Made by a program: the position numbers and the translations under genes | Shown here: one piece after another, positions 7,287 to 61,131 of the stretch | Position numbering within the stretch: position 1 is the stretch's first letter | How the letters are laid out: every line of letters starts with the position of its first letter | NCBI RefSeq assembly: GCF_000003815.2 | Contig: NC_049980.1 | Coordinates: forward strand, 21,121,807-21,185,806 | Source: Branchiostoma floridae | Taxonomy: Eukaryota; Chordata; Leptocardii; Amphioxiformes; Branchiostomatidae | Direction of reading: 5' to 3' | DNA: 64,000 bases | Notes under the pieces: model-generated | Seen by the model: the letters and a program-made list of their open reading frames with translations, nothing else | Told to the model about the DNA's origin: nothing | The model's database searches: none

Positions 7287-7488
7287 CTGTAAATGCATTT
7301 AAGTTCGCGGTAGCGGGAAAAGGACTTTTGTGGTGGTTTTAAGTTCGCGGTAGCACCATGCAGTGTAGTCTCTTACTATACTGCCATGGGAAAATGTTCG
7401 CGGACAGACCGTGGTTTAAGTTCACATTGAAGCGGTCACCGCGAAAACCACGAACATTAAACCACTTCGAAAGTTTCTGTATTTACAG
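7287..7488. mobile_element. TA-flanked MITE, 'GCGGT' family, copy 2
   Basis: Same ends and interior as copy 1, in the same orientation. The right end is slightly diverged (CTGTATTTACAG). TA on both sides. Confidence 0.85.
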
Positions 7489-7824
7489 TAGCCTGTTGCT
7501 TCTTAATGGGTACTAATTGTGCTGTCCTAAACAGCTCTTTCACCGCAAACTCTCCCATTTTTCTGTTTCCAATGTTTGATTTATACTACTTCTAGTGTGT
7601 ATAAGTAATTGCTATGAACTTGGAGAAAAATGTAATGTCTGAAATCTGATTACTGAAGTAGCATGTAAGATTTGACAAAAGTTGTTTCACATTGATTCAG
7701 TACATGTGTGTACATACACATTCATATGCAGGCAGTGACCTCTCACAGCCAAGTCAATGGCATCACAAAATGTGTTTTACGTTACAACTGAGCTACAGAA
7801 TTGTTTCAAACTAGAAAACCTCTA

Positions 7825-9080: not shown

Positions 9081-9498
9081 NNNNNNNNNNNNNNNNNNNN
9101 NNNNNNNNNNNNNNNNNNNNNNNNNNNNNNNNNNNNNNNNNNNNNNNNNNNNNNNNNNNNNNNNNNNNNNNNNNNNNNNNNNNNNNNNNNNNNNNNNNNN
9201 NNNNNNNNNNNNNNNNNNNNNNNNNNNNNNNNNNNNNNNNNNNNNNNNNNNNNNNNNNNNNNNNNNNNNNNNNNNNNNNNNNNNNNNNNNNNNNNNNNNN
9301 NNNNNNNNNNNNNNNNNNNNNNNNNNNNNNNNNNNNNNNNNNNNNNNNNNNNNNNNNNNNNNNNNNNNNNNNNNNNNNNNNNNNNNNNNNNNNNNNNNNN
9401 NNNNNNNNNNNNNNNNNNNNNNNNNNNNNNNNNNNNNNNNNNNNNNNNNNNNNNNNNNNNNNNNNNNNNNNNNNNNNNNNNNNNNNNNNNNNNNNNNN
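9081..9498. other. Assembly gap (418 N)
   Basis: Run of N; open frames crossing it are meaningless. Confidence 1.
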
Positions 9499-11667: not shown

Positions 11668-11767
11668 NNNNNNNNNNNNNNNNNNNNNNNNNNNNNNNNN
11701 NNNNNNNNNNNNNNNNNNNNNNNNNNNNNNNNNNNNNNNNNNNNNNNNNNNNNNNNNNNNNNNNNNN
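11668..11767. other. Assembly gap (100 N)
   Basis: Exactly 100 N, a conventional size for a gap of unknown length. Confidence 1.
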
Positions 11768-31607: not shown

Positions 31608-34600
31608 GTTTAAAGACCCGCCGCGCCGCCCGCTGACAGGCGACTGGGAATGTAAACAACCCGGGGGAGGGAGCGCAACGCGGGAACAGCCGACAAACAC
31701 TCACAATCTCGTCAGTTTCTCGCGTTTTGCGAGACACTGCGAGAGTTTACCAGCTGTTTTGGGGTCACAACAGGTCAATCTAGCAAGAAGGGTCCTTGCT
31801 GCCGATTTTGGTGGTGTTGCGTCGAAATTTGCGGAAAATACATGGAATTTACGGCCTATTGGCGGATTTTATGGCCATAATGCCAGTTTATTTGCTATAA
31901 TTATGAACTAAGGAAGGTAACTGATCGCATTTTTTTGTCAATTCTTGTAGAAAACCGTTCGATCTCCAGGCCCGTGTTAGCGCCAAGGACGAACATGCGT
32001 GGTTCGGTGGTTACGGGGACTTTATTAACTGCCTAATTAAAAATCAATAATTTCTCTATAATTATGGATGTTTAATATATTTTCTTTGGCGCAAACGCCC
32101 CGGTGTAGCCTTCATCATTATCTAGTGAAAAACGAAGTTTGGTGTTGCTTGTAATTGCCTAAGCTGTGTACTTTTTCATTAAATAAAAATAATGAGATGG
32201 AAAGTAGGACATGATGACGTCATAATGACGTCATCCATAAGGTTTCAAAAATTATTTCTAGAAACCTTATGTTTTCACCTACCAATATTCATTACAACCC
32301 AAGTTCTCTCTTACTTATTTAATGATAAAATAGTGCAAGTTCAAAACAGTTCAAATCACCTAATTAGCCGCCCCGGAAACCTCAAATTCTTATTTCTTCA
32401 TGACTTGTACTTGTGACCGAACTGTGTTGGAGCTGTAAGTTTTTGGAAAATAATTGAACTGACGTCATTTCACATATATTTCCTTAAAAGTCCTTGAAGT
32501 AATCAAAGCAAATACCACGTTATAGTAAAGGACAGAGTTAAAGAGAGTGACAAGAGAGAAAGACAGACAGACAGGCATTTCTTAAGAAACATTTTAATGT
32601 AAGACTAGAAAGGCAACATTTTCGCAAAAATCCAGTAAGTCTTTCTCATGCCCTTTTGTCAATGTTACTTTGAAAGGAAGCAGGCTGAATAAAACTTCTA
32701 CCTAGAAACTATGTGAATTCACTGCCCACCCCCCAAAAAAGGCTAGCATCAGCGGGTTTGTCTAGGCTAGGTCAAGAAACAGGAAACACAACATTTTTGT
32801 CTTTCGCCGCGCTTCCGCGGCGAAAGGCAATCAGACCGATATTAGATTTCTGTCCGTCCGTCCGTCCGTCCGTCCGTCCGGGTCGACCATGCCATACCGT
32901 GCTAGCGAGATATTCTACCCTGCAGATTCGACGGTATGTAACGTTATGACATACGTATCGGCCTACCATGAATGTGCTGCTTGGTTTGCGGTCCATGCCA
33001 TATCGTGCTAGCGAGATATTCTACCCTGCAGATTCGACGGTATGTAACGTTATGACATACGTATCGGCCTACCATGAATGTGCTGCTTGGTTTCTGCATG
33101 GCTTATAAGCAGGAATTTGCAGAGACGGATGTGAACGGTGAGGATTTCTTCGTAAGATTGTATACAATTTATAAACTAACATGTTCGCTGTTTGGTTATA
33201 ATAAAACAGACATTGTAGAGAACAGTTTGACATGTGATTTACTTTGTTTTATGGAAAATCACCGCTACAAAATCTAGAATTGTGTAAGATGCGTGCGCCG
33301 CATCTGACATGGTGTGGGAGGGGGGCGTATTCGGAAATTTCTTACTCTAAGAAATTTCAGGCTATTTTCGGATGCGTTGAAAATAGAATTACCCACATTT
33401 AATTTATAATTTCGAAAGGGAAGATTCTGACCGAGCTCGACGGAGTGAGTCTGACGCGTGACGTCACGACTCCGTCAAGTAAAAGCATAATTGCGTTACT
33501 AAAAGAAACGAAACGTTCCATTAAACATACCACGGACCTGTTTTAGTTTAAAATATCTACCTTTCACATGATCTTGCCATTAAAAAAAATATTTCCATTA
33601 CTGTATATGCCATGTTAATATTTTATGTTGTTTATGGTGACAATACTTTGTTTGTTCTTGCAGAAATTCAGGACACATCTACTGATAAATTTGATTACTA
33701 CAGTGCACTTTCATAAAACCCTGTTGTACTGTAACAGAGCCGTTCTTAACAGCGAAACAATCCGAATAAAGTTAACATCATTCATGCAGTTGTGTTATTA
33801 TACAGTTCAAGTAAAATATACTCTGTGAGAACCACTACCTTACTAAACAGTTATATAACCTAGCACTTGACCAAACTGTGCCAGAGCTGCCAACGTTGCA
33901 GACTTGGCACCCACGCTTGACCAAACTTTGCCAAACATTTTTACCTACACAATATAAGTAAGCGAAAGACTAGCTTTTTTCAGAAGCTCTTGTTTTCCTA
34001 GTACTCAGCAGAGAAAAGAAAGAAGTTTTTAATGAGACCAGGTCTTAAATTTTGTATGACCTTAGGCACTGTATGTTATGTTATGTTGTATGTGCAGCTA
34101 AGATACAAATGTAGATGACATGGCTGTTGAATTTTTAATGTGAAACTCCAAGCTGTGTAGCCATGGTCTCATAGTCATATAAATTTACAACTTGGTCATT
34201 ATTAGTATTAGTATTAGCATTTGTATTGTAGTCAAACAAGTTGACCTTCGTGTAGAGGAATCAAACAGGAAAAGTAAGTTTGGTGTGTCTAATGAAATTG
34301 CTGTAACTATTATGGTAATAGTAAGTGGTGTGAGCTGTGAAATAGCTGAAAATGTGTATTGTGATTTGAACTTTTTAGACCCCATTAAGATTGGGATAGG
34401 CAGATCCCATCTGGGTTATTTTCTAACTGGTTAAGTTTCTAGCTGAGAACTGGGTATCATATTCAGATATGTTTTTCTAATTCCATTGTACCATTTTGAT
34501 AAATGAAATACTGAAAAACAACAGGAAACCAGTTTTCTTATCTGTTGGTCAGGGGTACCTAAGCATTTGCACAAGTTTTATGAAAAATGTATGAATTTTA

Positions 34601-34868
34601 TGAAAAACGCACCAATCACTATGCAAAACCGTATGAATCTTATGTGATCCGTACAAATTCTCATAAAATACGCACAAACCTTATGCCAAACCGATCAACC
34701 CCTGCTGGCGTCACATCACAAATGGAGCTGGATTTTCATGCAGATGCATATGCACAGTAAGATTGTGTCTAGTCCTGAACAGTTGCCATGTTACCTGGAC
34801 CAATTTTGTTGTTGCCATTTTATCAGGATCAGTTTGATGATTACATGATTTGTTGTTACCTGTTGCAG
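31608..34868. other. Non-coding stretch between the transposase-like gene and MAPRE copy 1
   Basis: The first two coding exons expected for an EB1 gene (start methionine to GAAYCQF) were looked for here and not found. Contents are a CG-rich 5' flank of the transposase gene (31620-31760), a hairpin and duplication at 32801-33092, and otherwise AT-rich sequence. Confidence 0.5.
32801..33092. repeat. Hairpin, TCCG microsatellite and 106-bp tandem duplication
   Basis: A perfect 11-bp-stem hairpin (CTTTCGCCGCG, loop CTTC, CGCGGCGAAAG; 32801-32826) is followed by (TCCG)n at about 32851-32880. Two nearly identical copies of a 106-base unit follow, starting CCATGCCATA(C/T)CGTGCTAG at 32887 and 32993. 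Confidence 0.85.
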
Positions 34869-37800
34869 GTTCAGTTGTGATGAAGAAGGTGAAGTTTGTT
34901 GCCAAGCTGGAACATGAGTACATCCAGAATTTCAAGCTCTTACAGGGAGCTTTCAAGAAAAAGGGAGTGGACAAGGTATGCTTAGGGATATTGGAGGAGG
35001 GTTTGAAATGCATTGTGACATGTTTTCATTTACTTACTTATCCTCTATGTCCCATGAGGGACATAAGGCTGTGTTTTCATTTAGAATGCTTAGGATGTTT
35101 AGGTACTATAATATTAGTTTGCCACCAAAGTAATCCAGTAAAGTGGAACGTATTGGTTCTCTTTTCTGCCAAGATTATTCCAGTGGACAAACTTGTGAAG
35201 GGGAGATTCCAAGACAACTTCGAGTTTGTGCAGTGGTTCAAGAAGTTCTTTGATGCCAACTATGGCGGGCAGGAGTACGACCCCATGTACGCTAGAGAAG
35301 GCGTGGAGATGGTAGGGAAGGACGACCCCGGCGCCAGGGTGGGCAGCAAGCCCGCCAGGAAACCCGCGGGCGGAGCAGGTGGGCAGTCTCGCTTGGCTGC
35401 AGCAGGTGGGAAATCTGTGATGTCCTGTGGGGGGCGCGGAGCTCAAGGTCACAGGGTCTGATTGCCTCAATGTCAAAATGGATGTATTGTTTTTGGTCTG
35501 TTTGTTTGTCTTGGTGTGTGTTTGAGTTTGTTCCTTCAGGCCCAGTTTGTAGACTGGTTCCCCACTAAGTTATAAGTGGCAGGATGCCAAGATTGAGCTG
35601 GCACGCTTCCAAATTTCTACATTAGACTGGTAGGAAGTGAATGTTGGCGCACTTCATAAGTCAGGAACCCAAGGATGGCGTGTAGCCAAGAGCTGAGCAC
35701 AAATTGCCTGAAATAGACATAGCTGATCTCTTCTACCAGTTCATTCTCAGTGATTTTAATAAGTTGCAGTAGGCAATTCACAATTTTAAAGAGACAGTGA
35801 CAGTGAAACCCCAGGACCCAGGTTGTTTTTTGCAAAATAACATGGGGAATACGTCATAAAATTGAATACCGGGGATATACATTTCAAGGTCTGTTGTAAG
35901 TTGAGGGAGAAGGGTGCATACTTTTTCTGGGAAAGGAAAGATAGCCTTTATCTCCACCTAGGCTACATGTGTAAGCCATAGCTAACCATACATGTATTGC
36001 ACTGTTGACCTTGAGCTCTGTCAGGGGGAGGGAGGCATCCAGTGATCCCTCAATGGGCACCAATCACTACCCCCATAGTATGGACATCACCAAAACTCCC
36101 ACCGAATCAACTCATCTTTTGATTCTTTTGAAATAGATGATTTCCCCTTTTTCAATCTTAGCCCATCTTCTAGGGAACAATGGAGACTTTCTGTCGTTAT
36201 GTGTCTATCTTTTGTTCTTCCTCTTGTGTTTGAATCCAAGTAGAGGGCAGCATATTCTACCCCCTATCCTTGATGAAACTCTTTGATTTACCTCTCGACT
36301 ACTGAAATTTCCTTCAACATTTCCAACCAGTGTACTGGGATTTTGGGACATTCATTGTAAAATACATATTTTGCCAGTGTAAAATATGACCAATTACTCA
36401 GGTAGATGTGACTTTATCAGATGGAAAAGTGCAGACTTTACTTGGATATTTGGTGTAACTTTTATTACAAGTGTTTGGTGGTGTTTGATTATGTACACAA
36501 TGTCCTGCTGTTTACATTTAGCTTCTCTTTTTCTTCACGAGACAAGGTACTAAATAACACTAGAAAACATCACAATGGGTCCTTCATAGGTAAATATTAT
36601 TCAAAGCACATTCAAACTAGCCTTTCTCAAACTCTCCTCTGCTACTCCTGAAGGAAGAAGACCATACGTTCATGCAGGTGAGTATCCAGGTGTGTTCATT
36701 TCTGCCTCTCAGTTGCAAATGGCTCATTATTGTAGCTGATGTTATCCGTGGACATCGCTAGCTCTCCTCAGAAAACAGGATGTTTCTACAAAAGCAGTGC
36801 TCCTGTCTGTACACAAAACAATGTGTCACTCCCAATGAATATCACCCAAACTCCTTGTATTTGGCATATTAAAAAAACAATAGAAGCTCACAAAAGCATA
36901 GCCAGTCCATGTCAATGTGGTAATATTGTGAGTTGGCTTCATTTTGTGCAGACCAGTGAAAAGTGGTACATGTACTGTGGATCAGTATCTTTAGATCTGG
37001 ATCAAGCCATCATCATTCAGTAATAGAATCAGCTGGGTGCCACAAATATCTATTCATGTTGTCACCCCTTCATCTGTCTTGTCTGTCTTTTTGTCATACC
37101 TTTTGTAAACACTGTCTTGTCTGTCTTACACTGCTTTGTAATTCTGCCTCATCAATTGAATTTAGCTTTCTTTCAAAGATTTCCTGTTACCATCAAATGG
37201 TATCTTTGATTAATGCTAAAAAAAGGATGAAGAATGGAAATGACAGTGTCTCAAATAGAAGACTGCTATTTAACATGGCCCTTTCCTCTTCTGTAGCATC
37301 TCGCACCAAGCCAGCACCGCGGCCAGCCATGCATAAATCACCCGCACAGCACAGTAGAATGGCTGGAGGGGACAATGCACAGGTTGCAGAATTGAATCAA
37401 CAGGTATGACAATCAGAGTACTATAAATGCAGAAACTTTCGTGGTGGTTTAATGTTCGTGGTTTTCGCGGTGGTCACTTCACCACGAACTTAAAACCATT
37501 GCGAACATTTTTCCATGGCAGTAAGAGACTACAGTGCATGGTGCAAACGCGAACTTAAAACCACAGCGAAAAGTACTTTTTCCCACTACTGCGAAATTAA
37601 ATCCTTGCGAACTTAAATGCATTTACAGTATTATATGTCAGCTGACATTGTGCATGCCATGACTTGAGAAGGGTTAATGTGCACAAGATGGAAAGAGTTA
37701 AAAGACTGCGCTTGGTCCAGCATCCAGGCCATATTGCTCACAACCAAAGTTGATATTGTTGTAGCTGCATGTTAATTTGTGGTAATCCTTGTACAATTAT

Positions 37801-38350
37801 GTGGTTGGTTCCTCAGCTGATGGAGATCAGGATGACAGTGGAAGGGTTGGAGAAGGAGAGGGATTTCTACTTCGGCAAGCTGCGAGACATCGAGCTCCTC
37901 TGTCAGGAGCATGAGGGAGAGAACCACCCAGCCCTTCTCAAAATCATGGATGTGCTGTATGCAACAGAGGTAAGACTAAGACAGGAGATACAAAACAATG
38001 TGAAGACGTATGGCTACAGTATCCAGTATCAACAGTTTTTTTGTGCTGATGTTAATGTTGATTTGTGACGTCCAGAAGACAGGCCTAGATTACGTTTACA
38101 TTTGGTACAGAGATCATGGGAGTGTACAAGAAAACTGGACATAGTTTGATTTTAATTTAGCCCCTACCACTTTTATTTCATGGTCTGGCTTCCAGATTGC
38201 CCATGAAAGCATGTAAAGCTGTTGGATTTTTGTTATTACTATAGATATGCTTGATTTTGTGACTAATTGTGTGTTCCACAGGATGGCTTTGCAGCACCTG
38301 AGGATGATGGGATTGATGACCTTGGGGATGGTCAAGATGAAGAATATTGA
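34869..38350 (+). CDS. MAPRE: MAPRE/EB1 copy 1 (microtubule plus-end binding protein; 5' exons missing)
   Basis: EB proteins track growing microtubule ends: an N-terminal CH domain binds the lattice, and a C-terminal EBH coiled coil dimerises and recruits SxIP and CAP-Gly partners. Exons: 34869-34975, 35174-35378, 37297-37403, 37817-37969 and 38282-38350 (TGA). The sequence runs [40 protein letters not shown], a basic Pro-rich linker, EBH core [20 protein letters not shown], then an acidic tail ending DGQDEEY. The terminal EEY is the CAP-Gly-binding signature. The first visible exon enters in phase 1, as in copy 2. Adding copy 2's first two exons (160 nt) would give about 266 residues, against 268 in human EB1, so only about 53 N-terminal residues are missing. 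No such exons are seen upstream. Introns are homologous to those of copy 2. Confidence 0.9.
37421..37628. mobile_element. TA-flanked MITE, 'GCGGT' family, copy 4 (reverse)
   Basis: Lies 17 bases after the donor of the linker exon of MAPRE copy 1. Ends CTATAAATGCAG/TGCATTTACAG with TA flanks. Confidence 0.85.
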
Positions 38351-40610
38351 AAACTGCCAACACTTCAAGCAGGACTTACAACTTAAACAATGCGGCACCT
38401 TGCTTCTCATGTGCTTTAACTGCAATGCTTTATTTGCTGAACTCTCTGAAGGACTTTAAGCACTCTTTAAGCCATCAGATGCTCCCTATGTAGTTGAAAA
38501 CATTGGTTCACCTTTGTTTTCCATGTCTGTCTCTTCCACTTTCATTATTTGCTCTCTATGCAAAAATATCAGTTCCTTATTAAGGTTTTATTGTCACTTG
38601 AGATATGCAGACAGCCTGACCAATAAATCATTTGTTTATTAGGGAAATAGTCACCACTTCTTGCCATGCTTACAGGATTCCCAACATTAAAGTGCACTGT
38701 CACTAAAGTGTGCAATTGATGTAACAGTTGTATTTGGCATGTTGGCTCTGTATCTTTAAGTCCTTATTCCTCCATTTTAAAGTTGGTTGAATTATAAGTC
38801 CTGTATAGCATTCCACTCTGCTATCCCAAAGGTCCTTAAAAGTGTAGATCTCTCTGATTCAAAGTCATTTTGTTTGAATGACTCCCCTACATTGTCCCAT
38901 TTTCACTATTAGTGTGCCCATTACATTCTCTTCCTCTGTGCAGCATTGAAATTACAATTCCATGTTCTTTGCTTGTATATCATCTAATTCATATGGCAGC
39001 AGCATCAAATGACCAAGGTAGAGCGCCCACCAGCATTGCTTTGTCGTATACAATAGTCTATCTTTGCTAGTACTCACTATAGAATACATCAGTACACCAA
39101 TACTCAACATTTCATCATTGATAACTATTGAAGTTTTCGAGGAAACAAACTATTTGAACTTTCATTCATGCTTCTTGAAGTTTCCAAAACATGAGAAGTT
39201 AAAAAAGATGCTAAGTTGAAGGGCTGTATTTTCTGTCATGCTTTGTAAGGTTAAGAAAGTATATTTGTGTTTGTTTTTCTAGATATGGGTCTAAATGAGG
39301 ACTGCCACAATCAGTCCTTTGCTTGCCACAGTTTTGTGGTCACCATACTTACGATTTCTACCATAGTTGAGTATGTAAAAAAACTTTGCAGTCAGATCTG
39401 AAAAGCATCTGTGTTTCAATTTTACTTGAAAATGAATTGATAGAGTCCAGACTCACAAGAAGCCGCAGTTCTTCAGTGTTGTATATTTGGAAATTGAGAT
39501 AATCCATTGGCAATGGAAGCATTGTGAAAAAAATAGTTACATAACTTTCTTTTTACTCTATACCATAGAAGTAGAGAACAGTCCTTTGATTCCAAGCAAA
39601 CAAAGACCCTCACTTTCGCCCAGTTGGCAGATTGAGGGTCAGCTGCCTGAACCTCAGGCATTAGTCAAAATCTAAATTTGGTAAAAAATTTGGTTTACAT
39701 CAAAGTTAGGAAAACTGCCTTGAGATATAAGCTGCATTGGTTGTAAACATAAGTTGTAACAACTGTGTGGTGATGACACATTCTTATTGTAAATATTGTG
39801 CTTCTTCATTGTAACAGTACATTCTTTGTATGTCATCAGATTGTAAGTCTTACAATGTGTTGAACTGTTGATTGATGTTCAGACACACACAAACACATTT
39901 CTATATCTGTCTTCAGTCCATCTTGAAGTCTTACATGTACTGTATATCTTATGTGAAAATTCTTCCTGCTTTCGTCTTCCACTTTTGTTCTCTGAACAAT
40001 CTGTGTGTTCAAGATGGGTGGATATCAAACAAATACTTTAGATAGGATTGATCATTGTAATTGGGACTGTTCGAATTGTACATCATTGCTCGGTAATTTT
40101 CTACTGCCAATTTACCGTATAGTGCTGTGACAACATGACCCTGTGTGGTGAAATCTTGATGGCTTTGAACTGTACTGTATCAGTTTGATTGGGCATCATT
40201 TCTATATATGGGGTCACTTCAGTCCAGTAGATAGGGACATGCCAACCAGGCAGTTAATTCGCGGCACTATATTGCACTGTTGAGAAATGTTGATTCTGTG
40301 CAAATTGGCAAAGTTAATGCGACATCAAAAGCCTGTTCCTCAAAGCCTTTGCAAAACCACCATGCATACTGCCACCAGTACCAAATGCTGTAACCAGTGT
40401 GCCGACGTAAGAGGCAGAAAAACATGAATTAGTAGTTGTGAACCATTCTTTACAGGATACAAAGTCTCTCTGAAGACATGTAGTCCTGGATTTCTCCAAG
40501 GTAGTTGTTTCAGCAGGTTGGGAAGTTTTGAAGGAAGTACTGGAATGGACTATTCATGTACATGTACCTTACCCTTGGTTTGAAGTCAATAAATGCTATA
40601 TGTACCTACA
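38351..40610 (+). other. 3' UTR and spacer of MAPRE copy 1
   Basis: AATAAA occurs at 38632-38637 and 40588-40593, so a short or long 3' UTR is possible. A block at 38941-39020 (CATGTTCTTTGCTTGTATAT, GGCAGC) is homologous to 50253-50323 behind copy 2, showing that the 3' UTR was part of the duplication. Confidence 0.6.
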
Positions 40611-40814
40611 TGTTGTAGATGTCTTTATTATCTAACTGTACAAGGGAGGGGGTATCCAAAGGCTGCAGTGGTTTCCAGGTACTGGTACAGATGTACCGGT
40701 ACCCACCCCTAGTCAGGTCTATAGATTTGCATGTGCATATAGTTTATAATAATCATATAATGTTATCATCATACGAATTTAAATTTAATCAGAAATGTCT
40801 AGGTTTAGCCAACG

Positions 40815-41050
40815 TGGTAAGTGGTACCAATCTGCCACACTAGTGTCACATTTAGTGCACTTCTAGATCTCAACTATAGAAATTAATGGCTGTGATAACA
40901 TTTTTTGTCGCTTCAATTCTTGTTACAACGTTTATAGCATCTATGTTCAAAATTCAGCCATCTTGTTTTTTACCCTCTTTTTTTTCGCCCTATTTTTGGC
41001 AGTCCTTAGAATTTACATGCTGTAGCCTTCTAACAAAAGGAGTTAATTTA
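40815..41050. repeat. Duplicated non-coding block, copy 1 (partner at 47551-47795)
   Basis: About 235 bases shared with the intron before the linker exon of MAPRE copy 2. Examples are CCACACTAGTGTCAC, TTCAATTCTTGTTA, CATCTTGTTTT and GCTGTAGCCTT, with scattered changes and indels. Part of the local MAPRE duplication history. Confidence 0.75.
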
Positions 41051-41239: not shown

Positions 41240-44200
41240 ATGGCAGTGAATGTGTTTAACACTGGTGTAACATCTGATAACCTGAGCCGGCATGAAATGG
41301 TGTCATGGGTGAACGACAGCCTTCAGCTCAAGTACGCAAAGATTGAGGACCTTTGCACAGGTAAGATGGCCACTGTGTTGTAGACTACTGTAAATGCAGA
41401 AAGTTTCGCGGTATTCGCAGTTTTCACGGTGGCCGCTTCACCGCGAACTTAAAACTACCGCGAACATTTTCCATGGCAGTAAGAGACTACAGCGCATGGT
41501 GCTGCCGCAAACTTAAAACCACTGCGAAAAGTCCTTTTTCCCACTACCGCAAATCCAATACATTTACAGTATGTCCTTACTTGTAAAAATGAGGGCATGT
41601 AGAAACATTTTGTACGATGTTACACCAATAAGATAATTTTTTGGTGTGTGTGTTATGTAAGGACCAGGTCCCATCCCCAATGGGGTGCCCTGGTCCATCT
41701 GGTCAATTATAGACCCTCTTACGTGAGTAAACAAGACCGACCCTCCACAGACAGCTCTGGAGCGTGAACCAACGTGTTCAGACCTCACTGTGTCCTCTCC
41801 CTGCAGAGCTAGTTAGCAACACGGCCTATACCTAACACTTAAATCACCATTCTGTCTTTCTCCGTATTAGATACAGTATATAATTGCAACAATATGCTGT
41901 ACTGTATATTAAGTAGAAGATCTGGTAGTCTGTAGTCAATTAAATTTCCATTTGTGTTCAAGGCATTTTTGACAATTATGCTGTTTTCTCTACTACTATA
42001 CAGGTGCAGCATACTGCCAGTTTTTGGACATGCTATTCGAAAGTGAGTGGTACATTTATTTTGAATTTGTGCAGCGGTATTATGGCACCCGTTGGAATTA
42101 CGACAGCTGATGTTACATGATTTGTTGTAGTTGCCATTTTACCTGTTTGATGGTTACCCGTACGTGATTTGTTGTGTCTATTTCAGATTGTGTTCCAATT
42201 AAGAAGGTGAAGTTTGATGCCAAGCTGGAACATGAGTACATCCAGAACTTCAAGATCTTACAAGAAGGTTTCAAGAAAACTGGAGTTGACAAGGTATGAT
42301 GGGGTAGCCTGGGTACCACCCAGATAGTAGTTCACTCCTATGTTTGCTTCTGCTATCCATCTGGGGACCTGCACATTCAAACCATTTATGTGGTTAATGT
42401 GCAGATTAAGGAATAGATTCTAGGGAGCTCATTCAATGACAATAGCCTTCCCGCAAGCGGATGGAGGGCGTTTTGGGTGTTTGGTTGAACCCATTCCATA
42501 ATTCGCTCATGTGGGGACCAATCAGCGCCCTTGTTTAAAATTTGGACGATTCCTGAGATGTTAACGTGGTCAGGGATCCCAGATGGAACAGCAGAGAAGC
42601 AATATATATAGTGTATAAAGAATGTCAGAGCTAGAAGCGACTGTATCTAGTATATAATGAACAACGGAGCAAACTACTTTCCGGGTGGTACCCAGGCTAA
42701 TGATGGGCGCCCATTCCTCATTAACTGGGAAAATTGGAGGTAGAAAATTGTAAAAAATAAAGTTGTCCAAAACGCTTACCTGCTGGTATGAACTTGTTAC
42801 CACTTATATCGACTATCTTTTGCTATTTTTGTCTGGTGCTAACACGCTTAATTTTGGAGATATTTGATTTTTAGTAGGCCATGTCATCTTTCCTACAATT
42901 TCGTAATAAAGAGCATATTACTACACAGAGAAATGTTCCAGCAAGTAATAGTGGATTGACAACAGCCAAATTAGCGCATTTTCCAACCCAAAACCTTCAA
43001 ATTACACGCCAATGAGAAATATTTAACCGCCGTGTCATTTGTTTCGGAATAATCATCAAAATTACTAGCTATTACGTTTGCTACATTTGTATAAAAGTAA
43101 ATAAATGATATATTTTTTTTCTGATATGAAGACAAACCGTTTAATACTCCTTAATTTTCACCCTGTAGGATGGGATAAGAGCGATAGAATATATTTATGA
43201 AAATGGTTGGAAGCAGGCGATATCTATTCTACAGGTAAATGCCAATGAACTGTGGTAACGTAAATTACAGAATCTCTAACATTTGGAGGAAAGCCGAATA
43301 GTGTACATACTGGCTCTATTTGAACTGATCAGGTCATGTTCGTCTATAATGCTGGACCTCTTATCTTCATGTTGGTAACTCAGAGTAGCAAAAAAGTGTA
43401 TCTTTGTTATCCGGAATACCCGTATAATCTTGTTCGTCCTATACCCACCCGGACTCTGCGGAAAGACACCCAAGATATGCAAGGTCTCTGTCTTGGCGGG
43501 GTCTATTTAAATACATGCTAAGTAACAAAGGATTCACGCAATCACACGCTCTAGGTCAGAACCGCTTCGTCCTCGCGTCCTTTAATCAAGTCTTTGGGAA
43601 TAGCAGGACATGATGCGATGGCAACATGCACCAGATGGACTGGGCCTTTCTAGCACAAGCTTTCGATATTGGAAAGACAACAAACTAAACACCAGTTATC
43701 GCACTTCTTATAAAACATTTTTTAATGTCAGGACAATCTTTGTTCGTGGAACAAACACAATGTCACATCAATATAGAATGAATGTGCTACCTAACAAAAT
43801 GTCCATCCATACACCTTATATCGTGTGGTTCAATAATACCGGCAGAAAGAACTGTGTAATATGTGTATAACAAGGCTTTTGTTGATGAGCAAGGCTATAA
43901 ACAACATTTTCATATAGCCAGGTGCCGCGGACCAATCAGAAGGCCCCGTTCCACGTTGGTTATGACGCCGTAACACAAAGATTCAGGCCAGGCAGGTGGG
44001 TTTCGCTCCTCTGATTGGTCAGAATGAATCGACACCGGCACCAGTGTCGATGCTCATAAAACCACCTCGTTCGCTTCGCTCACATCGGTGGTTTTATTCG
44101 GTGGTTATAGCAAAGGACCAGGCGTTATGACACCATATACACCTCGGGGCGGGCCATTAACCCTTAAGTGAATTTTCCAAAGAGAGCTGCATGTGTAAAG

Positions 44201-47200
44201 GCAGTCTGTTCTACAGTTATCCTGGCAGCCTGTCCCTTTATACTAATGCCACATGATTACATGACAAGCCTGACATTATATAGATCTTGACTTTATAGAG
44301 TGGGATTGGTTTCACAAACAGCTTTCTGCCTTGAACCATGTGTCTGTCCATGTAAAACAATTCTGTGCATCAATTCTGTGCAGTCACGACTGGTTGAAAG
44401 AGTAGTCTGCTTCTAATTAACAAGATTTCCAACCTAAACAAGCAAAGGTGAAAACTTCGGAACATCTAATGATAGTGAAGTCTTAACTTAAGTTAGCTAT
44501 TAACTTCTGCAGCCCATATGCTTTTGATCATATAACTCAATGACAAGTCCTCAATGTAGATAACGTGGCGCTAGCGTAAATAGTGTCGCTGATTTACCGC
44601 CGTCTGTACGTTTATGTAAAGGGGTCCACTGTGTAAAACGAGAAATATTTCTGTGACACGAATCTTGACTACATTGACCTTCATAATTAGCTGATCATAA
44701 TCTCTGTTGCTATTTACGACAAACATGCTTGAAACGTACCTTACTTCATCAGTCAGTATTGAGCATGAATTTCTGTCATTCCAGTCGTGTGATCTTCAAA
44801 AAGCGCGCGAAAATGACGACAAACTTGGACGAGTCTACTTTGACAACAGGGGTTTATTTTGGTTCAGTCCAACCCAATATACATTTATTCAACTTGGTAC
44901 TATACATTCCGTGTAATGTTGATTATTGAAGCATCAGATATCAATATAAACACCCGCATCTTTCCAAGTTGGTGCATGTCAGGTTTATCATTTGAACATC
45001 GTTCCTGTAACAGTGGGGTTCTAGCGCTGCCAAACTGACCACGCCAACAGCTCTTGAGCTTTTGGTGTTGTGGTTAGCACGTTGGATTTGTGATCCGGCT
45101 GCTCGAGTTCGGCGCAGGGTCGAATCCCGGGAGTCGGGATGTTGTTTATTTCTGTTCTTACTCGCCCCTCTGAATTTCTACAATGGTTCCCACGCCAGCC
45201 CTGTGAGTAACAGGCTAGTATGTGCCACACAGGGATGTCTATCTCGGAGATTCGAGGACGAATCTTGAAAAGAAAAGGGGGAGTAGTGTAACAGTGGTGT
45301 GTCAAGGACTGCTAAACCGAAGACGCCTAATGGCTTAAGCCTTTTGGCCGAACGGTTTGCACGTTCGATTTGTGATCCGGCTGCCCGGGTTCGGCGCGGG
45401 TTTGAATCCCGGGAGTCGGGGTGTTGTTTCTTTCTGTTCTTACTCGCCCCTCGTATTTCTACATTCCTATGAGAAATGAAAAGTCCCAGCATCGTAAAAT
45501 TCACTGAAACAGGAACATATAAACAGACTGCATTGTGACTCTATGGCAAGCCAAGCCCACCTGCAGTAACATTACAGCAGATAATACGTCTTTGGTTGAT
45601 GTGCTCTTGCTGAACATCCGATGACATGTTGAAGAAAAAAAATGGTAACGTAAATTATATGGTAACGTAAATTATATTTATGCTTTTAATGATAAATAAA
45701 ATTTTAACAAACAGCTCTGGAAAGATTAACTCTGCAGGCAATTACTTATCTGGGAGCATTCTTTCCTATGAGTACAAAAGTAATGATCTTTCTATAATTC
45801 TAAGGGACTTATTATGGTAACGTAAATTACATAAAAAAAGTGACAAACAGCCTGAGATTGGCGGTTATAGTCATGTTTCCAACATTCGTGTTTTATGTGT
45901 TCTGTCATTTGTTTATTACGCAACACCACTGTTTAGCAGATAAAACAGTGAAAACATTATCGGAAAATGTCTTTTCGTAAGCGAATTACACCCAACAGAA
46001 GTTCGGTAACGTAAATTATACAAAAGTTGGCGACAAGAATAAAACGGCATCTGACGTAAAAAGGTGGTCTGCTGGACAAGTTCATCAACACGTGACAAGC
46101 CGGCCTAAGTGGTTGATGTAAATTATGACTGAAAATTTAAAGAACTAACGTCTTTTCATTATCAGAATGCCACGATATTCACCTTTATAGCATTTCCGAC
46201 ACGTGTTTTTAGCGTGTTTCTAAGCAAAACCTTACCCGGGACGACCAAAAGGCAACTAACAATGGTGGGAAAACATTGCTTAGCATATTACTATCATGTA
46301 CTTGTAACGGAAAAGGGCAAAATACGTAGTCATTGTGTCTTTAAAGAAAACTGTGGCCCGCTGCTTATGTGCGACAGCAATTTGCCCCTTTAACGAGGAA
46401 TGGGCGTGGGGATATTAAAGGATAATTCAAATGTATATTTGCCTTGAGTATATTATACATGTGTAGTATGCTTTGAGGTGTTGGATATTTTTTTCACAAC
46501 AGAAATAATGGTTCAAAATTGGGATGAACATTTTTGCAGAACTGTAAATATTATGTATGCTTAGATCTATCAGGTAATCCAGTAAAGTGGAATGTCCTCT
46601 CCCTCTCTGTCAAGATTATTCCAGTGGACAAACTTGTGAAGGGAGGATTCCAAGACAACTTCGAGTTTGTGCAGTGGTTCAAGAAGTTCTTTGATGCCAA
46701 CTATGCTGGCCAGGAGTATGACGCTGTAAGGGCTAGAGGTGGTGTGGAGGTGGTGGCAAAGCCCACCAAGAAACCAGTGGCTGGAGCAGGTGGGCATGTC
46801 TTCTTCATTCATCTTATTTAATCCTTTTTTGTCACATCACTTTTGTAAACATTGTCACATCTGTTGCCCCATTTACTAAATTTAATGGCAACCTAAGCAA
46901 TATTAGATCGTTGAAAGTGGAAATTTTCTGGATAAAGCAATCGGTATGATATTTACATCTAATGCACTATTATAGCATATTTACATCATTATTTCATAAA
47001 TTGAGCCGTTAAAAAGGTGCAGAATTAAGTCACCTCCTGATTGAGACCTAATTTTTGTTTCGGGGTTCCAATATTTAAGGGACATCCTCGTGCGACTTGT
47101 CTCTGGGCCGTTTAACCACTCAAATTATGAAATGATGATGTAAATTGTGTGAATACAGTGCAGTAGATGTCAATTGCCTTTGATACCCGGAATATTTCCA

Positions 47201-50182
47201 CTTTTAATGCTGTAATATTGCTTAGGTTTCCATCTCACAATAATAATGAACAGTTAATTCCAACTCACTATTAACTTCGATGACAATGTATTGTAAGAAC
47301 TAAGGCCACAGCAAGTAAATTTTATGAATGACATCCTTGCACTCATTGATTTTTGCCTGATTTCAGAGAGAAAAAAATAATTTCCTTCTTTAGGGATGGT
47401 CAGATGGGTACAAATTAATTGTGTTGTAAGCTTATATTTGTATGTAGAAGTGACACTAGAGTGATAGCCTTGGCTGTAGTAACTGTTGCAGAAGTGAAAC
47501 TCGCTGGATAGCTGTAAGAGTGACACCAATATGGAAGCCATGGGTAGTAGCCAACATGGTTAGTGATACATGTACCAGTCTACCACACTGGTGTCACTTT
47601 TAGACTAGTGCACTTCTTGAATACAGGAATAAGTGATTTGTTGGCTGTGATGCCATATTTTGTCACTTCAATTCTTGTTAAAATGTTTATAGTGTCTATT
47701 TTGAAAATTTGTTTTTTCACCCATCTTGTTTTGTTTTGCTATCTCATTATTTTTGCAGTCTGTCATCCATAAAATTAACTTGCTGTGGCCTTAAATGACT
47801 GTAGAAATTACCATGTCAACATGGCCCTTCCTCTTCTTCTGTAGCACCTGGTGGTAGGAGCGTTAAAGATAAGGAGGTTGCAAACTTGTTGCTTGAACAG
47901 GAGGAGGTATGATATTCAGTAGTAGAGTAAATATACAGGGTGCATGTTTGTCCCAGAGAATGTGGCTCCTGTTCTTTTCTGGTCAGTGGAAGGTCCAGTG
48001 GAGACTTATGTGCATTTCAATACTGTAAATGCATTTAAGTTTGCAAGGATTTAATTTCGCGGTAGTGGGAAAATTGAGTGTTTGTGGCGTTTTTTAGTTG
48101 ACAGTAGCACCAAGCCCGCTAACGTAAATGTATTAATTATTTTACAGTACTGTACTCTAGTCACAAACTTACATGAAAATCCGGCGCCTCTATGAACCAC
48201 CAGTCGGAAACTGCTGGATACTTGGCAAGGGTGCTACATACAGACAGAACAGTTCTCTCTTTACTTTGACAGTGCTGGCATGATCCCCTGTCACTGATTT
48301 TACTCTCAATTCGGTGAAGCGGGCACTGCGAATAAATGCAAACATAAAACCACTGCGATTCTACATTTACCGTATTAGAAAGTTTGTTCTTCTAGAAATC
48401 CACAGTCAGTCAAAAGTCTAGTTGAGAAAACAAGGTGCGATCCTGCTCAGTTTCTAGCCAGCTGTAGTAAGAAGGAGAATATAACATAAATTGATTTCAA
48501 CTGCTTGGATAATCAATGCACACAACAACAAAACAACTCAGGTGCCTTTTATTCACCAACTAAATCTTGTAAACAGAACAACCAACCTACCTGGGATATT
48601 TAAGACCTTTCCTACAAGACCCAAAATCTATCAAAAAATTATACCAAACCATTTGATACTGCTGACATAACCAAAGCTATGATGAAAATGTTTATTTGTG
48701 GTAATCCCTGTTAACATTACAATGTGTTTGACTCCTCAGCTGGAGACAACAATTGAAGGGTTGAAGAAGGAGAAGGTTTTCTGGTTCAGCAAGCTGCAAA
48801 ATATCGAGGTGCTCTGTCAAGAGGGCGAAACCATTGACACCTCCAAAATCACAGACGTGCTTTATAAGGAGGTAAGGAGGGCTAATTATGTATGATTGCA
48901 CAATAGGGCCACCAATATTATCTGATGACGTATGGCTGCAGGATGAAAAGTGTATACACGTATGCCTCAACATCTTTTTGTGCTGTAAACTGTTGATTTG
49001 TGCCATCAGGGGGACAATGCTAGTGATGAAGCTGGCAAGCCCATCAAGAATCCAATGGCTGGAGCAGGTGGGTAGTCTCCTTATCTGTCTTGTTTGTCTT
49101 TTTGTCATGTCACATTCTGTAACCTTTGGTCAACATTGCCTCATTTGTTGCAAAATCTCATGAAGCAGTTTGTTTCAAAGATTTTCTGTCTTACTGTCTT
49201 ACTTCTGTCTTAAACTTTTGCTCATAGTATGACAAATGGAAATGACAATACCAAAATATTGCATGATCCTCTCTCTTCTTCTGTAGCATCTGGTGACTTG
49301 GACAACATAACAAAGAAGGTATGATATTCAGAACATACAGGGTGCATGTTTGTCCCAGACTCCCAGTGTCTTTTCTCAATAGAAGGTCCTTATGTACATT
49401 TCGATATTAAAAATACATGTACATACTGACTTCTAGAAATAGATAGAAATACACAGTTAGCTAAAAGTGTTAGTAGTAAAAAAAACACAAGGCGTCATCC
49501 TGCTCAGATTCTGGCCAGCTGGGGTAACTGCTTGAAAAATCAACACACTTAAGCTGTAGTGACAACTCAAATGTCTTGTATACACAAACAAAACTTGTAA
49601 ACAGGACAACTGCTGACAAGAGATTAGACCTTAATTCCTTTCCTACAACAGTACAAGCCCAAAATTAAAAAAAAATCACAATCATACCAAACCATATGAT
49701 ATTGCTTACATAACCAAAGCTAATGTTGGTGTAACTACATGTTCATTTGTGGTAATCCACATACTACGTGGTTGATTCTGCAGTTGGGGAAATTACGAAC
49801 GACGATTGAAGGGTTAGAGAAGGAGAGGGATTTCTACTTCGGCAAGCTGCGAGACATCGAGGTGCTCTGTCAGGAAGATCCGACCAAACCCATTGACACC
49901 TCCAAAATCTTAGCTGTGCTTTATGCAACAGAGGTAAGAAGGGACGATCGTGAATGTTTGTGTTGAGATTTATTTAAACAAGTAGTTTATTGTACTGAAA
50001 CAGTAACTGTTTTTATTGCAGACATCCAGAATACAGACCAAATGTCACAGGCCATGAAATATTGTGAACCTATTACATTTTATTGAGGACTCTAGATATG
50101 CTTCATTGTAACAAATTGTGCATGTTTTTCACAGGAGGGGTTCAATGCACCAGAGGACATTGGGGATGGAAATGATGAATAA
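41240..50182 (+). CDS. MAPRE: MAPRE/EB1 copy 2 with duplicated EBH exons (ten exons, 307 aa)
   Basis: Exons: 41240-41360, 42004-42042, 42187-42293, 46615-46789, 47845-47906, 48740-48871, 49010-49067, 49287-49318, 49784-49933 and 50135-50182 (TAA). All borders are AG/GT, all phases chain, and the frame is 924 nt. The CH domain (about residues 1-130) starts [20 protein letters not shown] and includes [32 protein letters not shown] and [19 protein letters not shown]. Two EBH-type segments follow: EBH1 ([20 protein letters not shown]) and EBH2 ([20 protein letters not shown]). They are separated by a short exon whose [12 protein letters not shown] echoes the [12 protein letters not shown] end of exon 4. 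The tail [15 protein letters not shown] lacks EEY/F. Skipping exons 5-7 or 7-9 keeps the frame, so single-EBH isoforms are possible. AATAAA at 50376 is a suitable poly(A) signal. Confidence 0.88.
41388..41569. mobile_element. TA-flanked MITE, 'GCGGT' family, copy 5 (reverse)
   Basis: In intron 1 of MAPRE copy 2. It begins CTGTAAATGCAGAAAG and ends ACATTTACAG, with TA on each side; somewhat shortened (182 bp). Confidence 0.85.
42307..42697. mobile_element. TA-flanked MITE, GCCTGGGTACCACCC ends (391 bp)
   Basis: A perfect 15-base terminal inverted repeat, GCCTGGGTACCACCC and GGGTGGTACCCAGGC, is flanked by TA on both sides. It starts 14 bases after the donor of MAPRE copy 2 exon 3. No coding sequence. 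Confidence 0.85.
44028..44096. repeat. Pair of hairpins in intron 3 of MAPRE copy 2
   Basis: Arms ATCGACAC/GTGTCGAT (44028-44051) are followed by ATAAAACCACC/GGTGGTTTTAT (about 44056-44096). The region around (43925-44110) repeats CCAATCAGA/TCTGATTGG in opposite orientations, which looks like an old inverted-repeat transposon. Confidence 0.6.
45052..45190 (+). mobile_element. tRNA-derived SINE, family A, copy 2
   Basis: The box-A-like GTGGTTAGCACG and box-B GGGTCGAATCCCG sit in a tRNA-like head, followed by TTTCTGTTCTTACTCGCCCCTC. The fold is not a clean tRNA, because there are extra bases between the anticodon and T arms. Confidence 0.75.
45335..45470 (+). mobile_element. tRNA-derived SINE, family A, copy 3
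   Basis: Same orientation and about 285 bases after the previous copy, with GTTTGAATCCCGGGAGTCGG then TTTCTGTTCTTACTCGCCCCTC. The pair may come from a tandem duplication or nested insertion. Confidence 0.75.
47551..47795. repeat. Duplicated non-coding block, copy 2 (partner at 40815-41050)
   Basis: In intron 4 of MAPRE copy 2. See partner: shared landmarks CACACTGGTGTCAC, TTCAATTCTTGTTA, CATCTTGTTTTG and CTTGCTGTGGCCTT. Confidence 0.75.
48023..48372. mobile_element. TA-flanked MITE, 'GCGGT' family, copy 6 (with internal insertion)
   Basis: In intron 5 of MAPRE copy 2, the intron equivalent to the one holding copy 4, but in opposite orientation, so it is an independent insertion. Ends CTGTAAATGCATTT and ACATTTACCG with TA flanks; about 150 extra bases interrupt the middle. 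Confidence 0.7.
48740..48871 (+). CDS. MAPRE: EBH1 exon of MAPRE copy 2 (diverged)
   Basis: 44 codons, phase 0 at both ends, so it can be skipped without frameshift. The core differs from normal EB proteins at conserved positions: FYF becomes FWF, FGKLR becomes FSKLQ and ERD becomes EKV. The stretch around FYFGKLR forms the hydrophobic cavity for SxIP peptides in EB1, so partner binding could be altered (inference). The upstream intron end (TTTGTGGTAATCC...CTCAG) matches those before 37817 and 49784. Confidence 0.8.
49010..49933 (+). repeat. MAPRE: Second unit of the intragenic duplication: linker end, linker exon, EBH2 exon
   Basis: Exon 49010-49067 (phase 0 in, phase 1 out) corresponds to the end of exon 4. 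Exon 49287-49318 corresponds to the linker exon 47845-47906, with the same CTTCTTCTGTAGCA(C/T)CTGG acceptor. Exon 49784-49933 corresponds to 48740-48871. The intervening introns align too (TCTGTCTTGT..GTCTTTTTGTCAT). The EBH2 exon is almost identical to that of copy 1 over about 65 bases, closer than to EBH1. Confidence 0.8.
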
Positions 50183-57900: not shown

Positions 57901-60900
57901 CTCTTGATTCTAAAAAGATATTTTTTTATCTATGAAAATTTTGTGTATCACTCAGTCTTAGGGAACTATCATATGTTAATAAGTACTTGAATAGACAATG
58001 CACAAAATTCTTGATTATAAGAATCTTTTTAAAAGATATTTGTTATTCATACAAATTTTGTGCATCCATTCTTATTATCATGATAATTCCCTAAGAATGG
58101 AATGACGCACTTATGGGACTATGACCTACTTGGCAAAATCCTCTCCTGTCTAGACCAGATGAATGACTTATAACAAGGTGCCTTGTCAACACACCCTTTT
58201 TCTGTCTCCTTCCTTATCTTGCAGAACTAAGCCAGATTTCACCACAGATTTGATTCTCCAGACATTCCTGTCCTCTTTCCCTCAAACTGAACATCAACTG
58301 TGGTAAGAGTCTCTGAGATCTCCCATTGTACATTGTAATTATCGGCTCTCCTTTGTCCCACTTTATGAGCAGCCAGGCTTTCATCAACACTAACACAAAA
58401 CCAAAGAGATCCAGTCCCATGTATTATACTTTATAGGAAGGACAAAGCATTTTTCCAACACAAGGTGGTATGAAATAGCTGGTCTATGGATTATAAGAAG
58501 ACAATGACAGCATTACCTGGGTATGTCTTCTCCAGGCACTACAAAGGTGCAATTTTATGCACTGATTTTCCTACAAACTAGGCTAAATACCATATGAAAA
58601 TCTTCTTACAGCATTAGTTACACAAAAAGTTATAATTCTCACCACAACTTCAGCATGCATACAGTATCTATCCTCTGATGCTTTTGTGAACAATCAAATG
58701 TTTGGTTGGGAGGTTGGCTATTTAGTTGGGAGGTCCACTAAGGAGATTTATTCTAGTCAGGCTACATAACTCCGGTGTCACAGTAATACTGACCTCAATG
58801 TTTTTCCAACTAGCAGTGTGAAACAGAATGATATCTTCTTACAAAACTATCTGATGCTTACCTGAAAAGAGACTGACAGGTTGCCATGCTGAGTTCTCCC
58901 TCTGGTAGGTACACACCCCCTGCACCGCCATTCATGTCCACCAGTCTCTGGAGCTGCCCCAGCACCCCCTGCACCTCAGGGGGGTTGGCCAAGCACACCA
59001 GGTGAAGTTTTGATGGGAAAGGAAAGGGGAGAGGGAACTCATCCCCATCTGTTGACAGGTCATCATGATGGTGTTGTGAGCTGTAAAATCTCTCCAGGGA
59101 CTCTTTCAAGGAACCCTTTCCTACCCCTGGGCTCCCATCGGTCACTAGTACAACCTGTGGGGATGTATAGGAGAATAAGAACCTTAAGCAATGAGGTAAG
59201 CAATGCAGGCGTGAGCATTGTATGCGGTCTGGGGGAACCCTCCCCATGAAAATCTTGAAATTTATAACCCTCAGTAATGAACCCTCAGTAATGTCTAGAT
59301 CACTGGGTAAACCCGTTCTCTACACAAACAATGCAAATTTGCTAATTCGTGGTGCACAAATTTATAAATAGAGTTTGACTGTACTAGTGTAAGTGAAAAA
59401 TAAATAAAAAATTTCCCATTAATTGTAGGGAAGGAAATGTTTGCTGAGTTAAGTGAAAACTTTCTGCGCCCTTGTTCTTAAGCCGTTTTCTCAGCTTGCT
59501 GAGCAGGATGGAAAGGAAAAGTATGGTAAACCTTTAGATGAGTCTGTGTATTAGCTGTTCAATAATTACTACCATTGTCAAAAAGGTTATCTATTTAGTG
59601 CAATTTGTCTGGTTGTTCCTACATTGTATGTGTGTGTGTGTTAAGGTTTATGTCAATATGAATGTAATTTTGATGAAAGATTGTACATGCTAATACCAGG
59701 CTATTTGATTTGAAAAAAAAATCTACTAATGAGGGATTGGAGGGCTACTAAAGTTATGATTCAATTAGGCTGAAAATTAGGAGGTGGAAGTTTCCAGCTG
59801 CAATAAATAAACAGTGTCTTTTTTTAAATTTGGACAGTCAACAAAGTTGAGTTTAAGTTTAACTTTTCTGAGCAGACACAAATACTAAACTCTTATAACT
59901 CCATTAAAAAGTCAAAGAAAAATACTATCTTGAAAATTGATGAGGAATAAAAGTTTTATTCCCTGGGGCAGCCTCATACAAAAGGCCTTGTGTGCAGACA
60001 AATGATCATCAATGAATAAGTAATGCTACCTAGAGCACAACCTTCGTGCATTCTGAACAATGGGACAGACTTTTTCAATCAAGTGTATTCAATACCATTT
60101 GTCAGCATAGGTGAAGGTCTCTTGAAATGAAAAAAGACAACTGGAGACAAGTATTTCTACACTGACTGCTTAGTCCTGATTTTTGCTTTGAAAGCCATGC
60201 TGAAAGCAGGTGCCTTGTACACCTGGTATCTTGAGATGTAATGAGACTGGAATGTGCATGGTATAGTATATCCTGACAATAGCACCCATCAGGATATCAT
60301 AGCACATTTTCATGTAGATGGAGAACAGACAAAATAGCTTTAGCAAGCTTCCTTGACTCATCTTGCTGACTCAGAAGCCATTCTCTATACACATGTTTGA
60401 GACATCTGAGCTATTACTATAGTATTACATGACGTCATTCATGGCCTCGACCTGTGATATTAATCTATTATGGATAATCATTGATGCCGTCTTTGTCTGT
60501 AACACCGTCTTCTTCCTATATACCAGGCAATGTATATGGCTCCTTTTCTGTTTGGTTCTATGTTTCAAACATTTATCCTATAGCTCCTGTCCTGTTAATT
60601 CGTCAAGAATCCAGGACACCAGGACATCTATTAGTATTAGATCTAGAATTATGTTTTGACCTCAGACCCCATTCCTAATAAGATCTAATGTCTCAAGGGA
60701 CAGTGTGCATTATTTAGAATAGACCTTTACCAGTGCTGACTTATATGATATGAGGTCATGTGCTCACCTGACATGGCAGGCCCACTCCCCACTCGTCCAT
60801 CACTATCTGACTGACACCTGCCAATCCTGTCTCAATACAAGTCTTGTCATAGTCGTCCATCCTGTTCAGCCCCTCCTTCAGCTCCTTATAGTCCCTGGTG

Positions 60901-61094
60901 AAAGGTACCACCAGTTCCCAGAGGGAGGAGAAGGCCACCAGGGCAGTGAACTCCAGCCTGTTGTGTGCTGCCAGGTAGTCCAGCAGGGTGCTGACCCCCT
61001 GGATGGCCAGGTGCTTACGCTGGAAGTCATTGTCTCCGGAGACAACTGGTCGTGTCATGGACAGGGAAAGGTCCAGCAAGATCACTGTGGGCAT
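51996..61094 (-). CDS. INTS14: INTS14 (VWA9), Integrator complex subunit 14, complete, seven exons, 516 aa
   Basis: INTS14 belongs to the Integrator module with INTS10, INTS13 and INTS15, supporting snRNA 3' processing and transcription attenuation. Exons (minus strand): 61094-60768, 59154-58862, 56292-56057, 53927-53783, 53264-53012, 52797-52732 and 52226-51996. All junctions are GT-AG with consistent phases, giving 517 codons including TGA; human INTS14 is 518 aa. The N-terminal VWA domain starts MPTVILLDLSLSMTRPV, with an intact MIDAS DxSxS (Asp8, Ser10, Ser12). Later landmarks are LEFTALVAFSSLWELVVPFT, FPLPFPFPSKLHLVCLANP, SRHLVLPKP, SFCVLLHGSLKVESMVALV, NPYGEDD, SYAQNTTVWIKPSGLQ, TDVQKILRNARKLP and MLERECTLLPGTAHPDAALQ. 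A splice acceptor at about 61131, just before the ATG, implies a non-coding first exon further right. Introns 2-4 carry complex inverted repeats. Confidence 0.95.
54240..55375. repeat. INTS14: Interleaved inverted repeats (A-B-A'-B') in INTS14 intron 3
   Basis: Arm A (about 54240-54465) pairs with A' (about 54695-54912); both contain the block AAGTAAGCCC...TGCAAGGATGTGTG and the TACCATTTTTTGTAAA edge. Arm B (about 54480-54680) lies in the loop of A/A' and pairs with B' (about 55200-55375), via AGTCCATTCCAAG, AAATATTTCCCTGG and CATGATGTGGA. A further CATGGTGTCTTGGAATGG is at 55154. Very AT-rich, non-coding. Confidence 0.75.
57345..58110. repeat. INTS14: Inverted plus tandem AT-rich repeat array in INTS14 intron 2
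   Basis: The segment 57345-57475 is the reverse complement of 57725-57845 (shared ATATTGTGTGTCGTCAATTG-like and GGAAGATTTTTCCAATCAAG parts). From 57731 a unit of 108-122 bases, marked by (T)TAAGGAATTATCA and CACAAA-TTCTTGAT, repeats three to four times. The last end is inverted (GATAATTCCCTAAGAATGG, about 58080). A separate hairpin with CCATTCTTATG arms sits at 57608-57646. Confidence 0.75.
59155..60767. other. INTS14 intron 1 of the coding part
   Basis: No exon or clear repeat recognised beyond AT-rich tracts and a short TGTGTG run at 59630. Confidence 0.5.
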
Positions 61095-61131
61095 GCTGCT
61101 GGTCTTGCTGTCACAACCTCATAGATACCTA

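Follow-up and report, generated by a model that had tools for sequence, protein, structure and literature searches.

An EB gene of the lancelet Branchiostoma floridae that could encode a protein with two EBH segments

EB proteins organise the growing end of the microtubule. The human EB1 and EB3 proteins possess one EBH each. An EEY-type end is typical of animal EB1/EB3 but is not universal, and hence we did not take it as defining the family; the EEY of the EB tail docks CAP-Gly partners, among them CLIP-170 and p150Glued. In tandem alternative exon cassettes, homologous exons lie adjacent to one another and have matching phases. According to the available part of PMC3765442, EB1 and EB3 are obligatory dimers, and the binding of partners requires this dimerisation.

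Here we describe an EB gene of B. floridae, called gene B, which lies in a stretch of 64,000 nucleotides of contig NC_049980.1 (the window; all coordinates below are positions in it). Like human EB1/MAPRE1 and EB3/MAPRE3 (PDB 2R8U, 7SJ9, 1WU9, 3GJO), gene B combines a CH domain with an EBH that has the same coil register, and its second EBH (EBH2) retains all 10 of the pocket residues examined in comparison with the human proteins. Gene B differs from them in possessing two EBHs with a linker exon between them and in having no EEY-type end. It resembles tandem alternative cassettes in that adjacent homologous exons are in matching phase, and it is unlike them in that a block of several exons has been copied and a bridging exon would let both copies into one mRNA. 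The exons of gene B, and the intron at the join of the duplication, are as follows.

41240..41360, + strand: exon 1, start of the CH domain; the only EB exon 1 found genome-wide
42004..42042, + strand: exon 2 (CH); the only EB exon 2 found genome-wide, with E 1.35, the edge of detection
42187..42293, + strand: exon 3 (CH)
46615..46789, + strand: exon 4, end of the CH domain and linker
47845..47906, + strand: exon 5, block 1, N-terminal coiled coil of the first EBH (EBH1)
48740..48871, + strand: exon 6, block 1, EBH1 (diverged); Pfam EB1 34.1 bits (exons 5-7)
48872..49009, + strand: intron 6, duplication join; matches the last intron of the neighbouring gene A nearly to the exon 7 acceptor
49010..49067, + strand: exon 7, junction exon; 49037-49067 duplicates the linker end of exon 4
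49287..49318, + strand: exon 8, block 2, N-terminal coiled coil of EBH2
49784..49933, + strand: exon 9, block 2, EBH2 (canonical core); Pfam EB1 57 bits (exons 8-10)
50135..50182, + strand: exon 10, C-terminal tail without EEY

The original prediction had placed ten in-frame exons at 41240-50182 on the + strand, with intact splice sites and no stops in the duplicated exons, and had read them as a CH domain followed by two EBH segments. This structure was reproduced in our analysis. That is, the exons sum to 924 nt and give 307 amino acids and a stop, every intron is GT-AG, the duplicated exons are open, and Pfam finds a CH domain (45.2 bits, cut-off 26) followed by two EB1 stretches, which score 34.1 bits for EBH1 alone and 57 bits for EBH2 alone (cut-off 27). 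The N-terminal part of the protein matches PDB 2R8U (residues 1-141). When the whole genome (513 Mb, 431 contigs) was searched with the PF03271 profile, three matches were obtained at E <= 0.001, and all of them lay in the window, two in gene B and one in the neighbouring gene.

The junctions 46789/47845, 48871/49010, 49067/49287 and 46789/49287, which had been proposed together with these exons, are all present at the sequence level. Joining the exons in silico also agreed with the proposal that skipping either exons 5-7 (giving 223 aa) or exons 7-9 (giving 227 aa) keeps the frame; that is, both EBH cassettes are frame-compatible with their two flanking exons. Exon 4 is in frame with exon 8, and exon 6 is in frame with exon 9 (277 aa). 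Early stops result when exon 6 is joined to exon 8 (219 aa) or exon 4 to exon 7. Gene B could encode a two-tailed EB protein, namely one with a double EBH. The two EBHs may stand in one protein or may be alternatives to each other, either of which is compatible with the sequence. Odd domain architectures of lancelets have often been ascribed to errors in gene prediction, as stated in the available part of PMC4967905.

Comparison of the window with itself revealed a second EB gene, gene A (34869-38351, + strand), 2.9 kb upstream of gene B. The two genes form a tandem pair in which gene B lies downstream, and gene A was absent from the original prediction. The exons of gene A are as follows.

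34869..34975, + strand: equivalent of exon 3
35174..35378, + strand: equivalent of exon 4
37297..37403, + strand: linker and coiled-coil exon
37817..37969, + strand: single EBH exon; PF03271 66.3 bits, E 2.1e-15
38282..38351, + strand: last exon, ending in DGQDEEY-stop

From exon 3 on, gene A has the same exon organisation and phases as gene B. Unlike gene B, it has a single EBH, keeps the EEY tail, and has no exons 1-2 that could be found in the assembly. Its given sequence of 213 residues matched human EB3 over residues 1-212 with 250.6 bits and human EB1 over residues 1-203 with 241.4 bits.

Exons 1-2 of gene A were found neither in the window by tblastn nor genome-wide among matches up to E 10. 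For exon 1, local nucleotide alignment upstream of the gene scored at best 20.5, as compared with 19.0 in one shuffled sequence; for exon 2, the figures were 14.5 and 13.0, again with one shuffled sequence. The genome search with gene B exons 1-4 returned nine matches up to E 10, consisting of one for exon 1, one for exon 2, two each for exons 3 and 4, and three weak matches at other places (E 1.39-4.6). Because exon 1 of gene B scores E 1.8e-19, a second EB exon 1 would have shown in this search, but an exon 2 that has diverged might escape it, since the 39-nt exon 2 of gene B itself scores only E 1.35. Gene B has the sole EB start exon found and is thus the only EB gene seen in the assembly with both of its ends. 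Upstream of gene A there are runs of N at 9081-9498, 11668-11767 and 29337-29618, which could hide something.

We considered whether gene A is an old pseudogene. This idea was unsupported by exons 3-4, which are identical to human EB1 at 64 of 81 residues in both genes (the values against human EB3 are 60/81 for gene A and 58/81 for gene B). Since the CH exons of the two genes are equally near human EB1, the absence of exons 1-2 is more likely to be recent, polymorphic or due to a fault of the assembly than to reflect old decay. In the available part of PMC12373286, the B. floridae reference is described as not haplotype-resolved, and 10.3% is called dispensable.

The homology of gene A to gene B stops at 34806, near a dispersed repeat at about 34546-34738. 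When 40 of 405 candidates were scored, this repeat, part of the upstream flank of gene A (34200-34869), showed at least 70 matches other than itself. Another, short dispersed element occurs at 37415-37632, 41382-41571, 48019-48115, 20544-20758, 6462-6671 and 7285-7494, that is, in introns and intergenic sequence and in both orientations, the listed pairs being 75-96% identical. Intron 3 of gene B contains two copies, 87% identical, of what appears by eye to be a tRNA-derived short element (45059-45170 and 45341-45452), and the sequence before exon 1 of gene B at 40806-41029 is 70% like 47548-47792 in its intron 4. At 32887-33093, a 101-bp unit is present in two tandem copies with 99% identity. 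A long open frame on the - strand (29334-31700) runs into an N stretch; it is mobile-element-like by eye only, and its first 694 codons matched no Pfam family at E <= 0.01. A VWA-domain exon on the opposite strand, past the end of gene B (60756-61118, - strand; PF13519, 51.5 bits), may belong to an Integrator subunit 14 gene.

An internal duplication of an exon block had been proposed as the origin of the second EBH, and this was borne out by direct repeats and shared introns. Direct repeats of 77 nt with 83% identity link exons 6 and 9, repeats of 36 nt (92%) link exon 7 and the end of exon 4, and repeats of 34 nt (85%) link the acceptors of exons 5 and 8; several intron pieces of blocks 1 and 2 pair in the same way. 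In the four alignable pieces, the introns of the two blocks are 70-84% identical, with 333 of 434 sites identical and 14 gaps. A transposon origin of the shared introns was rejected for the intron before exon 6, which, in a genome-wide search that leaves out simple repeats and very common words, matched nothing but itself and block 2. For the same reason, the duplication is local and not a dispersed repeat. Furthermore, the EBHs of blocks 1 and 2 (B1 and B2) have six derived residues in common relative to gene A and human EB1/EB3, and no residue favours either other grouping, the loop positions being loosely aligned in this count. We therefore place the duplication inside gene B. The dS values in the EBH were 0.99 (B1-B2), 0.74 (A-B2) and 0.63 (A-B1), and that of exons 3-4 between genes A and B was 0.32. 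Because these values disagree and the sites are few, we give no date for the duplications.

The position of the join was indicated by the introns. Intron 6 of gene B resembles the first part of the last intron of gene A, and none of 1000 shuffles reached the score; this likeness is absent from the blastn output and is supported by the shuffle-tested alignment. The last intron of gene B matches another part of the last intron of gene A (0 of 1000 shuffles), and intron 6 has no match to the last intron of gene B itself (P 0.39-0.69). The first 27 nt of exon 7 (49010-49036) match neither of the exon 4 ends significantly (P 0.21-0.81), so far as their source is concerned. The join of the duplication thus falls at exon 7, which is preceded by a copied last intron (intron 6) and whose 3' part was copied from the end of exon 4.

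Lancelet alleles usually differ by a few per cent. If the doubled block were two alleles set end to end by the assembly, the introns of the two blocks should be comparably alike, but the identity given above, with its 14 gaps, is too low for alleles. Moreover, block 1 ends in an intron that is like the last intron of gene A and unlike that of block 2, and there is no N run between 29619 and 64000. We consider such an artefact highly improbable, even though gene A has no exon 1 in the present assembly and lancelet references are reported to be not haplotype-resolved and to show much presence/absence variation (PMC12373286, available part).

Exon 6 reaches exon 8 in frame only via exon 7, which carries phase 0 to phase 1. 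Eight AGs lie near exon 7, and three of them are in frame and open; among these, only 49010 scores well as an acceptor, at the 96.6th percentile, the other two being at 19.7 and 24.9. The copied linker end in exon 7 is conserved at 28 of 31 sites, as compared with 42 of 60 in the intron after it (Fisher P 0.036), and each of the three differences between exon 7 and exon 4 changes an amino acid. In a neutral simulation of exon 7 alone, the exon stayed open with GT/AG in 25% of the runs. Exon 7, which is needed for a double EBH through exon 8, may accordingly be read only as permissive evidence.

In gene B, a tandem duplication has thus copied a block that begins at the linker end of exon 4, includes the EBH exon and extends into the last intron. 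The copied piece of the old last intron runs to the acceptor of exon 7, and the copied linker end supplies the 3' part of exon 7 together with its donor. By its change of phase, exon 7 would allow block 1 to be spliced to block 2 in frame.

The evidence on whether EBH1 is coding came from several comparisons. As judged against gene A as well as block 2, 9 nt have been lost from the start of exon 6 and 9 nt gained at the end of exon 5. Because these paired changes lie on either side of intron 5, the heptad register of EBH1 is kept. The EBH1 coil aligns to human EB1 without a gap across the exon 5/6 junction, and its core positions are mostly hydrophobic (VLQLILKWLIC, as compared with ALVLVLRYLIC in human). 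The splice sites of exons 5-7 score between the 91st and 99.9th percentiles of those in the window (3835 AG and 3804 GT sites). When neutral evolution was simulated with a simple model based only on the alignable intron pieces, with about 14% substitution per branch estimated from introns, exons 5-7 stayed open and in frame in 1.8% of the runs and also kept GT/AG in 0.28%, and the chance survival of exons 5-6 was 1.2%, the tested exons having been picked for being open. Taken together, the paired indels, the splice scores and the simulation provide fair evidence that exons 5-6 are coding.

The dN/dS value between EBH1 and EBH2, 0.31 over 56 codons, also favours coding. Against it stand the values relative to gene A, 0.69 for EBH1 and 0.45 for EBH2. 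On the EBH1 branch, the ratio of nonsynonymous to synonymous changes (N:S) of 16:8 was indistinguishable from neutral (P 0.24), as was that of 13:7 on the EBH2 branch (P 0.18), in a test of low power. In the 25-codon core, EBH1 showed 8N:2S (neutral P 0.76) and EBH2 showed 0N:3S, which suggests that EBH1 is relaxed or diverging.

This core, together with the neutral-like N:S ratio, the change of 3 of the 10 pocket residues in EBH1 and the in-frame joining of exon 4 to exon 8, is what would be expected if exons 5-7 were a mostly skipped relic and gene B gave an ordinary single-EBH protein via EBH2. We consider this unlikely, however. Exons 5-7 have neither a stop nor a frameshift and possess good splice sites despite the intron substitution of about 14% per branch, and the paired 9-nt changes preserve the coil register. 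Structure prediction gave a helix-loop-helix both for exon 6 alone, with a three-row alignment (pLDDT 90.5), and for exon 9 without its first codon (pLDDT 91.7). Foldseek with the lone EBH1 model returned no EB match among its six matches (best E 2.6); this is taken, in an uncontrolled reading, as an effect of the short hairpin of 44 residues. We therefore think, from the sequence, that EBH1 is probably translated under a weaker or changed constraint.

The residues of the SxIP pocket, according to the list in the available part of PMC12695022, are kept at 10 of 10 positions in EBH2 and at 7 of 10 in EBH1. In EBH1, Tyr217 is replaced by Trp and Arg222 by Gln, Lys stands at Thr249, and there is one residue fewer before the Thr249 position. 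At the sequence level, the coil register and a mostly hydrophobic core are kept in the EBH of gene B. The original prediction had suggested that a double EBH could either alter dimer geometry or raise the number of SxIP partners bound. Because the pocket residues of EBH1 are changed, a higher number of partners seems less likely, and an extra or altered dimerisation segment is favoured over it. As for the tail, gene B ends in NDE-stop (50161-50182) and gene A in DEEY-stop (38330-38351), and the gene B protein, having no EEY-type tail, is not expected to dock the CAP-Gly partners named above.

The reading that we favour, with a probability of roughly 0.5, is that of ordinary splicing, in which each exon is joined to the next to give a protein with CH, EBH1 and EBH2. 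EBH2, with its canonical pocket and coil, would be the working hub, forming a parallel dimer and holding the SxIP partners. EBH1, whose pocket has drifted, would add a further dimer-forming coil and hairpin, and in the long form it would lack the usual C-terminal loop after it. The single-EBH forms made by exon skipping would be minor products. The long form with EBH2 as the hub and EBH1 as an added coil is favoured because EBH2 keeps the pocket, EBH1 is altered, and dimerisation is needed for partner binding. In this proposal, the DNA, the frames, the duplication and the residues are as observed, and from them we infer the splicing, the form of the dimer and the binding of partners.

Exons 5-6 and 8-9 might instead alternate, so that each protein has one EBH and is either the canonical form of 223 aa or the diverged form of 227 aa. 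The donors and acceptors of both single-EBH forms match in phase and keep the frame, EBH1 and EBH2 have the same coil register, and their pocket residues differ, as expected with different partners. We nevertheless regard this arrangement as rather unlikely. Exon 7 would be superfluous in it, yet this exon stays open between a good acceptor and a strong donor and permits double inclusion; in addition, strict exclusion would itself require a mechanism.

If both EBHs stand in one chain, as in the favoured long form, they might also pair with each other, giving a single-chain EB with one CH on a pseudo-dimeric EBH and two unequal SxIP sites. Counted on the 307-aa protein, 23 residues lie between EBH1 and the coil of EBH2, a spacer that would in principle be enough to run back along the coil. 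We think that such intrachain pairing is quite improbable.

Among the matches listed for EB1/MAPRE evolution, EBH duplication, single-chain and lancelet EB, no title or abstract opening named a double-EBH protein. Our search for literature on amphioxus together with EB1 or end-binding protein found none, and the match for amphioxus and MAPRE1 concerns DNA-methylation genes.

The gene B locus illustrates how the join of a duplication can create a phase-correcting exon. If the favoured reading is true, a natural EB protein with two EBHs would test the role of dimer geometry and partner number at microtubule ends. If the single-chain form is true, partner binding would occur without the avidity of two CH domains, and tip tracking would be split from the recruitment of partners.
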